Positions 59,850 through 64,000 of a DNA stretch of 64,000 nt are shown one piece after another. This DNA comes from Zhongshania aquatica (GTDB taxonomy: Bacteria > Pseudomonadota > Gammaproteobacteria > Pseudomonadales > Spongiibacteraceae), in contig NZ_JANZNQ010000005.1 of NCBI RefSeq assembly GCF_027257955.1, positions 124,001-188,000 on the forward strand, given 5' to 3'. The first letter of the stretch is position 1; each line of letters begins with the position of its first letter. The position numbers and the translations under genes are program-made. The notes under the pieces were generated by a model. The model did no database searches. It saw only the letters and a program-made list of their open reading frames with translations, and was not told the DNA's origin.

Positions 59850-62021
59850 TTACAGTAACTGCAAATTCGCGTATTGAAGCACTAACCACTTACTGCCTTC
59901 GTCTTCAAAATTCACCTGCACCCGCGCGCTGGCGCCTTGGCCTTCAAAGCTAAGCACGACACCAGCGCCAAAAATACTGTGTAAAACCCGCTGACCCAAA
60001 CCAAAGCCAATAGACGCCGCCGCTGCCTGTTGGGCACTGGTGGTACTTTGTGCGTAGCTACTTGGACGAGTGACGGTATTATTGATTCGGACTTCATCAA
60101 TGAGTTCGTTGGGGATTTCACGCACAAAACGCGACAGGCTATTAAAGCTCTCTTGGCCGTGCAAACGCCGAGATTCTGCATAACTTAAATATAATTTTTT
60201 CTCTGCGCGGGTAATACCTACGTAAGCAAGGCGACGCTCTTCTTCAAGTCGCTCTGGGTCTTCCATCGACATTTTATGGGGGAAGAGATTTTCTTCCACG
60301 CCGACCATAAACACCGCCGGAAACTCCAGCCCCTTGGCCGAGTGCAAGGTCATAAGCTGCACGCTGTCTTCATGTTCATCAGCTTGCTGATCACCGGCAT
60401 CCAAGGCAGCCTGATCAAGGAAGGCGCGCAGCGGTTCGGCTTCCTCGTCTTCCGGGGTATAGCCCCGCGCGGCGGTAATCAGTTCCTGTAAGTTCTCGAC
60501 TCGCGCCTGAGCTTTCTCACCCTTTTCTTTTTCATGAAAGGCAATTAGGCCAGACTTATCAATGGCGATACTGACTTGTTCATCTAAGGGTACATCTTGG
60601 CACTGGGTCGCAAGATCTTCGATGAGTGACAAAAACCCGCGCAAGGCATTACCCGCTCTAGCAGGCAGCAAGCCATTTTCAATAATGGCGACCGCAGCCC
60701 GCCACAAAGACGTTTGATGCTCTCGAGCGTATTCACGCAATATTTCCACGGTGCGGTTACCGATACCACGGGTGGGCGTATTAATAACCCGCTCGATGGC
60801 AGTGTCGTCATCGCGCAGAGCAATAATCCGCAAATAGGCGAGGGCGTTTTTAATTTCGAGCCGATCATAAAAGCGTTGGCCGCCATAAATCCGGTAGGGC
60901 ACGCCAGCGCGAATCAAATACTCTTCCAGCACCCTCGACTGAGCGTTGCTGCGGTAGAGGACGCCAATATCGCCGCGGCGATAATCATCGCGCAGGAGTT
61001 CATCAATGCGATCAGTAACAAAACGCGCTTCGTCTTGCTCATTAAACGCAGCAAACAACGCGATTTTGTCGCCATCTTCACCCTTGGTCCACAGCTCCTT
61101 TCCTAGCCGCTGGCTGTTATTGGCGATGAGGGCATTGGCGGCTTTGAGTATGGTGCCGGTGGAGCGGTAGTTTTGTTCTAGGCGAACTACCTGAGTATTT
61201 GGAATATCTTTGGAGAACTGCTGAATGTTTTCAATCCGCGCGCCACGCCAGCCGTAAATAGACTGGTCATCATCGCCCACGGCGGTCATCGCCATGCCTT
61301 TACTGGTCAATAATCGCAACCACGCGTACTGCACGGCGTTGGTGTCTTGAAACTCATCCACTAGAACGTGCTTAAAGCGCTGTTGGTAATGATCAAGAAT
61401 CGCGGGATTGTCTCGCCATAATTCCAGCGCCCGCAGCAGTAACTCGGCAAAATCGATAACGCCTTGCTGACGACAGACTTCTTCGTAACGGCGGTAAACC
61501 TTGAGCATGGTGCTCAAATGGTGATCGCCACCAAAATCGTCAATATGCGCTGCGCGACGACCTTCGTCCTTGTGCCCATTAATAAAATACTGGGATTGAC
61601 GCGGCGGCCAACGGGCATCGTCAAGTTCTAATTCACGATGAATACGCTTGAGCTGCCGAAGTTGATCGTCGCTATCCAAAATTTGAAAGTTGTCGGGCAA
61701 GCCGGCTTCACGGGCATGCGCTTTAAGTAAGCGATGAGCTAGACCATGAAAGGTGCCCACCCACATGCCGTGATTAAGATTACCGCCTAAAAGCGCCTCT
61801 ATCCGGCCACGCATTTCGCGAGCGGCTTTATTGGTAAAGGTGACCGCCAAAATACTGTAGGTAGACAGGCCTTCGACCTTAATCTTCCAGGCTATACGGT
61901 GCACCAAGACTCTGGTTTTACCACTACCGGCACCCGCCAGTACTAGCGTGCCGATGCTATCGGCAGTTACCGCGTCACGCTGCGCGTCGTTGAGATCATC
62001 AAGAATATAAGATACGTCCAT
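59850..62021 (-). CDS. uvrD: DNA helicase II (UvrD)
   Basis: A 723-residue SF1 helicase in nucleotide excision and mismatch repair. LVLAGAGSGKTRVLVHRIAW is Walker A, VDEFQDTNAVQYAWLRLL Walker B, GDDDQSIYGWRGARIENIQQ motif III, and EEERRLAYVGITRAEKKLYL motif VI. The C-terminal RVQVNFEDEGSKWLVLQYAN segment is typical of UvrD and distinguishes it from Rep. Length matches E. coli UvrD (720). Divergent from hexR. Confidence 0.96.
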   Translation of the reverse strand: MDVSYILDDLNDAQRDAVTADSIGTLVLAGAGSGKTRVLVHRIAWKIKVEGLSTYSILAVTFTNKAAREMRGRIEALLGGNLNHGMWVGTFHGLAHRLLKAHAREAGLPDNFQILDSDDQLRQLKRIHRELELDDARWPPRQSQYFINGHKDEGRRAAHIDDFGGDHHLSTMLKVYRRYEEVCRQQGVIDFAELLLRALELWRDNPAILDHYQQRFKHVLVDEFQDTNAVQYAWLRLLTSKGMAMTAVGDDDQSIYGWRGARIENIQQFSKDIPNTQVVRLEQNYRSTGTILKAANALIANNSQRLGKELWTKGEDGDKIALFAAFNEQDEARFVTDRIDELLRDDYRRGDIGVLYRSNAQSRVLEEYLIRAGVPYRIYGGQRFYDRLEIKNALAYLRIIALRDDDTAIERVINTPTRGIGNRTVEILREYAREHQTSLWRAAVAIIENGLLPARAGNALRGFLSLIEDLATQCQDVPLDEQVSIAIDKSGLIAFHEKEKGEKAQARVENLQELITAARGYTPEDEEAEPLRAFLDQAALDAGDQQADEHEDSVQLMTLHSAKGLEFPAVFMVGVEENLFPHKMSMEDPERLEEERRLAYVGITRAEKKLYLSYAESRRLHGQESFNSLSRFVREIPNELIDEVRINNTVTRPSSYAQSTTSAQQAAAASIGFGLGQRVLHSIFGAGVVLSFEGQGASARVQVNFEDEGSKWLVLQYANLQLL

Positions 62022-62082
62022 GGCGGCATATTCTACTGGGATTACGCGGCGCTGGCACCGCTAATCTCGGATCCGGATCAAT

Positions 62083-63021
62083 TTGATGACTGACAACGCC
62101 AATATCCCCGTCCTGCGTTACAATAAAGCCAGCCAAACCAATAACAGCAAGCCGGTGGACACCACGTTGAGACCCAGAAATATCATTCGCGCGATGGAAA
62201 GCAGCCGAGAGCAAATGCGCCGCTCTGAGCGCAAGGTCGCTGACTATATTCTGGCAAACCGCAAAGAAGTCATTCACATGCGGATTGTTGACCTCGCCCA
62301 AGAGGCCCACGTTAGTGAACCCACCGTGGTGCGCTTTTGCCGCGCCATTGGCTGCGACGGTTTCCAAAACTTTAAAGTCGCGCTGGCTCAGCACATTGCC
62401 CACAGCCCGGAGTATGAAGAATTTAGCTTTGGCGACGAGGACTCTGCCCGTCAATACACCTTCAAAGTCTTTGACTCCACCATGGAGACCTTAAAGAAAG
62501 TTCGCGATAGCGTCGACGTCACCGCTATCGAAAAAGCCGTGGAGCTGCTCAGCAATGCTCGTCGTGTAGAATTTTACGGCTTTGGTGCTTCTGCGGCCGT
62601 GGCCACCGATGCCCAGCACAATCTGTTTCGCCTTCAGATTTCTGCCAGCGTGTATTCCGACCCCCATGTACAAGCCATGTCGGCCATGTCCTTAGACCCC
62701 AACGATGTCGTGGTGGTCATATCCCAGTCTGGCCGAACCAAGGCCTTGCTAGACGCTATCAATTTAGCCCAGCAAAATGGCGCCCCCGTCATCGCATTAG
62801 CACCAACAGGCTCACCGGTAACAAGCGCCGCCGACCTCGCCATTTATATCGACGTCGATACCGATGATGGCGACTACACACCCTTGCCATCCCGTCTTGC
62901 TCATATGGCGGTGTTAGATATTCTCGCAGTGGGTATTTCCCGCAGCAAAGCCGGTGTACGCGAACATTTAATCGCCATAGAAAAAGGCCTGCAGGTACTG
63001 CGTACAGATATTAAGGAGTAA
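62083..63021 (+). CDS. hexR: HexR-like RpiR-family regulator
   Basis: A 312-residue regulator. The N-terminal HTH (RIVDLAQEAHVSEPTVVRFC with RAIGCDGFQNFKVALAQHIA) is RpiR-type, and the C-terminal SIS domain (FYGFGASAAVATDAQHNLFR; VVVISQSGRTKALLDAINLA) binds sugar phosphates. In proteobacteria HexR senses 2-keto-3-deoxy-6-phosphogluconate and represses glycolytic and Entner-Doudoroff genes. It is not beside zwf here. The starting region has two adjacent ATGs. It is the last core-like gene before the cassette region. Confidence 0.93.
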   Translation: MMTDNANIPVLRYNKASQTNNSKPVDTTLRPRNIIRAMESSREQMRRSERKVADYILANRKEVIHMRIVDLAQEAHVSEPTVVRFCRAIGCDGFQNFKVALAQHIAHSPEYEEFSFGDEDSARQYTFKVFDSTMETLKKVRDSVDVTAIEKAVELLSNARRVEFYGFGASAAVATDAQHNLFRLQISASVYSDPHVQAMSAMSLDPNDVVVVISQSGRTKALLDAINLAQQNGAPVIALAPTGSPVTSAADLAIYIDVDTDDGDYTPLPSRLAHMAVLDILAVGISRSKAGVREHLIAIEKGLQVLRTDIKE

Positions 63022-63157
63022 GTGCTTTTTTACGTCGTTGATTACTCTGCTTATAGTTATAAACGAGCAGTGCAAAAGTAGTGCGCTATAGTGATATATT
63101 TCAGCGAAGGCATTTTCAGTAACCGCTAGGGAAAGAACTTACTAAAGAAAAGGATAG

Positions 63158-63245
63158 GGTATGAAGGTAAAAAATACGTTTGGGGATAGTAGTCAGAGCG
63201 GCGTGTTTAAACACGTCGCATCAACGTATATTTAGCTGTTATACC
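63158..63245 (+). other. Degenerate attC-like recombination site
   Basis: The right end TTTAGCTGTTATAC resembles the L'-R' half of an integron attC site. Its reverse complement aligns without gaps, with several mismatches, to GGTATGAAGGTAAAAAATAC at the left end. Between them GCGGCGTGTTTAAACACGTC plus GC forms a 22-base hairpin (63198-63219). So the 88-base stretch folds as an attC-like hairpin, but the left R'' box is degenerate (GTATGAA instead of GTATAAC). It lies directly before a cassette-like gene. A tiny frame inside it is probably accidental. Confidence 0.5.
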
Positions 63246-63257
63246 TAGGGTTAAGCA

Positions 63258-63761
63258 ATGGACTATGTAAGTGTATTTGCAGGCTTTGTTAGTGGTGTAT
63301 TGCTTGCCCTAGCGGGGGCCTGGATAAATATCTCATTAAGTAAGAGGTCACAAGATAAATCAGCATTGAAGGCAGCCGAGTACGAGATGTATCTAAAGCT
63401 CAATGACCTTTACAATTGGTATTTTTGGTACTCAACGAACGAGCTTCATAAGAGAGATACGCCTCAAGATATAACAGATGCGTGTCACAAAATTGCCGTC
63501 GAACTAGCTAAGCTCCTACATGAAAATGAAGAAACAGAGTTCGCACAAGAGCTGATGAAAACCCTCTATGATGAAAGCTATGAAACATACGATCAGCGTT
63601 GGAAGCACATGTCAGCCTTATCAGAAAAAATGGGCAGTAAAGTTGTCCCTGTACATCGCCAGCGCCTAGGCCAAATAAGTGAGGCCAATATACATTTGAT
63701 GGCGCAAGAGAAATTTGTAGCTAAAGCTCCTGCTTCAAGCCGGTTTAAGATGGGGATATAA
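63258..63761 (+). CDS. Integron cassette-like gene: membrane-anchored hypothetical protein
   Basis: A 167-residue protein with one N-terminal hydrophobic helix (VFAGFVSGVLLALAGAWINI), then a charged, helical cytosolic part rich in Glu, Lys, Leu and Tyr (LYNWYFWYSTNEL; YDQRWKHMSALSEKMG). No known domain was recognised. The stop codon overlaps the R'' box of the attC-like site that follows and the gene starts 12 bases after the preceding one, an arrangement typical of gene cassettes. Function is unknown. Confidence 0.75.
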   Translation: MDYVSVFAGFVSGVLLALAGAWINISLSKRSQDKSALKAAEYEMYLKLNDLYNWYFWYSTNELHKRDTPQDITDACHKIAVELAKLLHENEETEFAQELMKTLYDESYETYDQRWKHMSALSEKMGSKVVPVHRQRLGQISEANIHLMAQEKFVAKAPASSRFKMGI

Positions 63762-63854
63762 CAAATTGCTCAAACATCGCTCCGGCGCAAAAACACGCGC
63801 CTCCACTGAACAGCCTGCGCTGCGCTTCGGCTGCTGTTTAGCAAAGCGTTATGT
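63756..63854 (+). other. Integron attC site
   Basis: R'' TATAAC and L'' AAATTGCTCAAACA on the left match the reverse complement of the right arm TGTTTAGCAAAGCGTTATGT: CATAAC and TTGCT-AAACA, with the one-base gap after TTGCT that corresponds to the extrahelical base of attC sites. GCGTTATG is the usual R' crossover core (G|TT). The spacing of about 95 bases and the position after a cassette gene's stop fit attC. The central part is variable, as in natural sites. The alignment is read by eye and needs folding software to confirm. Confidence 0.82.
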
Positions 63855-63876
63855 TCCAATAATCAGGACTTCCTAA

Positions 63877-64000
63877 ATGAAATCGGTATTCGACAGCGTT
63901 CCTTCTGACTTTCGGCTTTTGTCGATACTTGCAACCATCATAGGCATTACGGTCCTGGCGAATTGGGCTGTGATTGCGATAATAAATCGACTGGAGTCGT
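63877..64000 (+). CDS. Second cassette gene, N-terminal part (cut by window edge)
   Basis: A frame opens at ATG 63877 after AGGA and runs off the right edge (41 codons). It encodes one hydrophobic helix, LLSILATIIGITVLANWAVI, after a short polar start, so it is probably a membrane protein. It begins 22 bases past the attC site, as expected for the next cassette. No family can be assigned. Confidence 0.5.
   Translation, partial: MKSVFDSVPSDFRLLSILATIIGITVLANWAVIAIINRLES

Follow-up and report, generated by a model that had tools for sequence, protein, structure and literature searches.

The window analyzed here, a stretch of 64,000 nucleotides, spans positions 124001-188000 of contig C63 in a 4.49 Mb genome of 107 contigs from the same genus as Zhongshania marina, a marine gammaproteobacterium whose HexR, at 91% identity, was the nearest of nine named records retrieved with the HexR of this genome. 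Toward its right end lies the core regulator gene hexR (62083..63021, + strand), whose product matches Pfam HTH_6 (1.9e-24) and SIS (4.9e-19) and scores 277 bits against the NCBIfam HexR profile, slightly below the cut-off of 296. Directly downstream of hexR, and on the same strand, are two genes, one at 63258-63761 encoding 167 aa and one starting at 63877, both as described in the original prediction. The claim that this core gene immediately precedes the array, with no integrase between them, also held, as the hexR stop (63021) and the GTT of the attI core (63238) are only 217 bases apart, leaving no room for intI. The array does not lie at a contig edge, since C63 is 282,167 bases long and extends past base 188,000, where the window stops. 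Downstream of the second gene are a DUF6500 gene, an RDD gene and, on the other strand, a molybdopterin oxidoreductase gene (MopB). PADLOC matches the RDD-family protein just beyond the array (L012:3310-3804) weakly to PD-T4-6 (E 1.8e-5, 21.9 bits), probably by way of the common RDD domain. An Rfam scan of 60000-64000 (E <= 1) returned nothing integron-related, its one match being well under the gathering score, and a search for direct repeats flanking the array gave nothing useful. The search for sigma-70 promoters upstream of the first gene yielded one match in the region, not above shuffled sequences (mean 1.9).

The first cassette gene (63258..63761, + strand) encodes a protein of unknown family, as had been proposed: its two Pfam matches are both far under the cut-off, there was no match in NCBIfam or PADLOC, and searches of 17 further genomes from the genus, of PLSDB plasmids, and of viral and GTDB contigs, the last two by scans that reach close relatives only, yielded no relative. 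Overlapping the stop of this gene is its attC (63756..63854, + strand), with R'' ATATAAC and R' GTTATGT. This site was detected using a covariance model built from 28 attC of this genome and the genus with R and L box pairs; the window site was excluded from training, though the 28 sites were chosen by a TAACAA...GTTA pattern that the window attC fits too. The match scored 31.7 bits (E 3e-5 in 208 kb, by a rough calibration) and is the sole one in the 64-kb window at E <= 1. When a covariance model was applied to both sites named in the original prediction, the well-formed attC after the first cassette was recovered and nothing matched elsewhere in the window at that threshold. The single-strand fold of the attC is modest (z -2.25, with 6 of 200 shuffles equally good). 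At score 13, a home-made scan for attC pairing matched shuffled DNA 79 times per 100 kb; being too noisy, it was replaced by the covariance model.

The second cassette gene (63877..64000 and on to window-equivalent 64779, + strand; ORF L012:1877-2779) encodes an MscS-type mechanosensitive channel of 300 aa (Pfam MS_channel_2nd, 2.1e-20), as the continuation of the contig shows. Its 3´ side carries a degenerate attC-like stretch followed by an array-end motif, GCGTTGAGGTTGGAGAA (C63:188864-188880, window-equivalent 64864-64880), which differs by two mismatches from the form GCGTTGAGGCTGTAGAA. Running the covariance model without filters over L012:1000-4000 gave no true match to a second attC, and the attC of the second cassette is accordingly degenerate or absent; the candidate, located only by its position and the array-end motif with two mismatches, folds weakly (z -1.5, 16 of 200 shuffles equally good). 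With up to two mismatches allowed, GCGTTGAGGCTGTAGAA has 97 matches in the 18 genomes compared with 10 for the reversed control, and eight compared with none in this genome. A 15-base form of the motif was found 18 times (in 17 places) in the fetched loci, where 1.6 matches are expected by chance, and nine of the 17 places, the end of the window array not being among them, coincide with the 3´ end of a model attC match. On this reading, the array would end at about base 188,880 of C63, roughly 0.9 kb beyond the window, and hold two cassettes rather than being the edge of a longer CALIN array, as had been suggested. The cassettes face one direction, with the attC at 63756-63854 and a candidate second attC without a model match, and the cluster has no integrase, as in a CALIN. 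With one clear attC, it falls below the default IntegronFinder threshold of two.

Upstream of the first cassette is an attI-like site, here called type A (63143..63242 up to the core, + strand), recognized by homology to sites beside intI remnants. It contains the inverted repeat GGCGTG TTTAAA CACGTC (63200-63217), conserved among copies, and the core GTTATAC (63238..63244, + strand), defined by alignment of eight copies; the crossover is presumed to fall between the G and TT. The eight aligned copies share an invariant TTAGCTGTT at the core, after which there is no similarity. Besides the window site, these copies comprise C19:172902-172944 of the same genome (88% identity, E 1.2e-8), five places in the same-genus genome G012 (70-74% identity, best E 4.1e-10) and one in G005. 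Integrase fragments facing away from the cassettes follow the C19 site after ~220 bases, and of the five copies in G012, two adjoin intI fragments. By tblastn of the fetched flanks, the other five of the eight (the window, three in G012 and one in G005) are without an integrase. No match to type A was found in plasmids at E <= 1e-5. The repeat, in the form GACGTG-TTTAAA-CACGTC, shows a paired change to GCCGTG...CACGGC in one G012 copy (G012d), hinting that the inverted repeat matters. Two integrase-less type A copies in G012 (L103:3050-4890) are 1.6 kb apart, with GGGGACAG.TTTATTTT motifs in the DNA at their left borders, which we take to recall REP/RAYT elements.

Most of this site overlaps the stretch (63158-63245) that the original prediction had called an 88-base degenerate attC. 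The location stands, as the top strand of 63158-63245 folds strongly (z -5.0, with none of 200 shuffles as good), but the identity as attC does not. The strong full-length hairpin is specific to the window copy and absent from the seven homologues, which keep the central inverted repeat instead, and the homology is to attI-like sites. Judged by these alignments, 63143-63242 is better read as a putative attI than as a degenerate attC, and the array would thereby be headed by an attI homologous to sites adjoining intI remnants. That reading leaves the fold of the window copy, which is better than that of the accepted attC, unexplained.

A profile search detected no integron integrase on C63 at E <= 0.001, in agreement with the predicted lack of an integrase near the array, and there is no intact intI beside the attI. 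Elsewhere in this genome, the profile identified a single near-complete gene, interrupted by an in-frame TGA (C33), and, in C19 and C39, fragments; no other match exceeds 43 bits, where the cut-off is 265. As for the suggestion that the integrase might lie elsewhere, the intI neighboring the other type A site of this genome, in C19, is broken, and there is no working one of that kind in the assembly. Across the group, intI above the family cut-off is present in 14 of the 18 genomes, including the C33 copy with its stop. The cassette array adjoining the C33 integrase gene (L015:457-8590) is longer and of the ordinary kind, with 13 attC matches.

The site adjoining the C39 integrase remnant (~257 bases) defines a second, more frequent attI type, type B, for which we found 27 matches in 7 of the 18 genomes and none in plasmids or phages at E <= 1e-5. 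Excluding two partial matches in G006 and a third at a contig edge in G003 left 24 full copies, all of which end at GTTA followed by differing sequence. Based on tblastn of the fetched flanks with four integrase queries, four of the 24 have intI in the flank, broken in C39 and G001 and open in G006 and G009, and 20 do not. The copies with intI match the query to base 291-297, whereas among the 20 lacking it the match ends at query base 254-266 in 19 and at 286 in one (G005); two G005 copies retain homology to the intI leader without intI. For 18 of the 20, an attC match lies downstream on the expected strand (E <= 0.1, the nearest match at three of these loci being merely E 0.05-0.09); the exceptions are one copy in G006 at 912 kb and one in G005:C9. 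Some attC of type B loci served in model training, and each of the 18 loci has at least one attC outside the training set. Because six of the 20 copies lie inside contigs of 3.5-4.2 Mb (G006 and G001), the lack of intI is not due to broken contigs. The attI copies on C14 and C35 of this genome are on short or end-of-contig stretches.

One pair of orthologous type B loci without intI, C96 in this genome and C7 in G005, allowed the cassettes themselves to be compared. In 100-base windows, the left 2 kb are 90-100% identical up to the attI core, to the right of which the sequences are unrelated (29% ungapped). C96 contains an HNH protein and one attC, and C7 contains FRG and PhyH proteins and two attC matches (E 0.05 and 0.0055). 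From the GTTGAGA of the last attC onward, the two loci are homologous again (score 92 compared with a maximum of 66 in 1000 shuffles), while on the attC side of GTTGAGA the score is 47 and shuffles reach 69; the first 100 bases of resumed homology are 69% identical and later windows 88-100%. In G009, G003, G006 and G002, the flanks of the C96 site are 67-177 bases apart, with no type B match and no attC match. Since the site is empty in these four relatives and attI is present in C96 and C7, a unit with attI arrived there. intI is seen in neither species, and the cassettes differ between both crossover points; differing cassettes at an orthologous attI without intI point to an integrase acting in trans. 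Sequence also differs after the core, not resolved to the base, at two more locus pairs, whose left flanks are 84% and 82% identical; by sequence comparison, the case for action in trans rests on one well-resolved pair. In G013, the left flank of an intI-less attI (locus C106, L173) is duplicated, one copy being without attI; we do not treat this locus as main evidence because of the duplication and because the genome is 7% contaminated.

We also compared the place downstream of hexR among relatives. In G009 it is empty, with hexR and MopB ~90 bases apart. G002 has a type B-like attI there (score 76 compared with a shuffled maximum of 38 in 500), together with two attC matches and a perfect array end. 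The closest orthologous case is G013, with a weak type A match (score 41 compared with a shuffled maximum of 40 in 500), one different gene and an apparently truncated attC. In G003, G006, G005 and G001, 2.7-9.6 kb separate hexR from the next recognized neighborhood gene, without a model attC. Considering the arrays in the window and G002, cassette arrays headed by different attI types have occupied this place in at least two genomes. An apparent exchange of cassettes without a local intI is seen by comparison at C96/C7; no comparison shows exchange at the window attI, the closest case being the weak G013 match. In a more distant genome (G010), a full integron with intI and seven attC matches (L063, G010:C1:3986700-4002700) lies within ~4 kb of hexR.

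Another element recurring near the attI copies is a repeat of ~100 bases, repeat X (GTCCGCTTATTACCAGATCAGGA ... GGCTCTAGCGTCACATTAGCGGTC), whose right part has 40 matches in 10 of the 18 genomes and one in the control. It occurs at L128, L163, L180, L183 and other loci and at C63:116903 and 117447 of this genome (G000), sometimes as a series of like-oriented copies spaced 0.5-1.8 kb apart, between which lie one or a few ORFs. Repeat X is found to the left of 10 of the 20 intI-less type B copies and, in G006 and G001, also just past the integrase; several array ends are followed by pieces resembling its start. Integron mobilization units bracketed by MITEs have matching terminal repeats on both sides and a target-site duplication; no such duplication was established here, and repeat X was not seen at the window array. 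A role for repeat X in mobility is a guess, as X also occurs alone.

In integrons generally, IntI inserts circular cassettes at attI. By the reading we prefer, cassettes, each a gene with its attC, would have been inserted at the window attI core by an integron integrase encoded elsewhere, acting as a helper in trans, after an attI unit with or without cassettes had reached the site downstream of hexR, this being the most likely history. The feature is probably a small chromosomal integron array with its own attI and no integrase, on which an integrase acted from elsewhere. We infer both the use of the window attI in trans, by extension from the type B loci, and the manner in which attI units move; the window case rests on analogy because its attI type differs and the integrase beside that type in C19 is broken. 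The helper appears broken in the present genome, and the window array is therefore probably frozen; since the search of this genome yielded no intact intI, activity in trans today is not supported here. More broadly, and tentatively, as we would put it at somewhat short of an even chance, the genus may have a "distributed integron", in which many intI-free attI platforms with their cassettes are discrete units spread across the chromosome, on which one integrase, or a few, would act in trans, the window platform having been orphaned when its integrase was lost.

A substantial competing possibility, to which we assign roughly one chance in three, is decay in place, whereby each site had a complete integron from which intI was deleted, leaving attI and cassettes without any action in trans. 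Such decay would fit the broken intI found next to each attI type in this genome (C19 and C39), the in-frame stop in C33 and the leader homology kept by two G005 copies, and also the finding that intI loss is common in Xanthomonas (PMC12444791). Independent deletions are unlikely, however, to yield the common border seen in 19 of the 20 intI-less type B copies, and decay does not account well for a C96 site that is empty in four relatives or for cassettes that differ at an orthologous site lacking intI in both species, though the C96/C7 difference may stem from a longer array in the ancestor that was shortened in different ways prior to the loss of the integrase. At the other extreme, it is scarcely credible that these are unrelated genes in an ordinary operon after hexR with a chance attC-like hairpin. 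hexR and both genes do share a direction and the attC fold alone is merely z -2.25, but the covariance match is the only one in 64 kb, the site upstream is homologous to attI, an array end follows, the interval is empty in G009 and cassette 1 is absent from the 17 other genomes.

Two further readings retain recombination and assign the attI-like DNA a different origin. An off-target integrase could have placed cassettes into attG sites to give a CALIN, the resemblance to attI being secondary; insertion of this kind has been reported (cited in PMC12901181 and PMC12444791), but it would not carry along the 100-257 bases of conserved attI DNA that are shared by eight type A and 24 full type B copies, and we regard this origin as improbable. 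Less improbable, though still unlikely, is that 63143-63242 is the recombination site of a non-coding, delta-attI-like cassette, so that the platform itself moves as a cassette. Such cassettes exist and recombine (PMC12901181), attI copies occur in tandem in G012 and G006, with attC between those in G012, and the window copy folds like an attC; against this, no GTT crossover was recognized at the left border of the copies, where the sequence differs from copy to copy.

Relative to known systems, a small array with attI and without an integrase of its own is CALIN-like and already known in kind from a Shewanella prophage. CALINs are known and common (PMC9024848, PMC12444791, PMC9229058), and attC sites were kept after intI loss in Treponema phagedenis (PMC3607928). 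IntegronFinder 2.0 reports CALINs from two attC by default, leaving single-attC cases to the user, and attI sites outside class 1 integrons are poorly described and not detected by the program (PMC9024848), so that attI copies such as these would go unseen. Compared with a CALIN as defined there, the window array likewise lacks intI but keeps an attI at its head. The CALIN of the Shewanella prophage M16-3 (PMC9892861) is similarly an intI-less array headed by the attI type of the prophage's complete integron. The account of M16-3 concerns one prophage case, whereas the present sites, of two attI types, are found at many places in one genus, have core genes of the chromosome as neighbors and, at an orthologous site, carry differing cassettes in two species. 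Like the present sites, the delta-attI-type cassettes of class 1 and 2 integrons place attI DNA away from the integrase, and theirs recombine; the attI piece described for them is mostly 14-18 bases and stands in the place of attC behind the gene (PMC12901181), unlike the ~100-257 bases of attI ahead of the cassettes here. In the chromosomal integrons of Xanthomonas, intI is likewise broken in many lineages and CALINs occupy fixed distant loci, with the available text describing no attI copies at those other CALIN loci (PMC12444791). In the literature we searched, with most subscription journals outside our reach, no genus-wide dispersal of intI-less attI with cassette turnover was described, and no integron study of Zhongshania or Spongiibacter was found by title.

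Integrons are usually described as one integrase and one attI. If attI sites multiply without an integrase yet remain able to acquire cassettes, a genome would not have as many cassette landing sites as intI genes. Finders that seek intI and attC would then overlook these array heads, and CALINs need not all be dead, as some may still be active. Cassette uptake at an attI without intI is directly testable with the orthologous loci C96 and C7.
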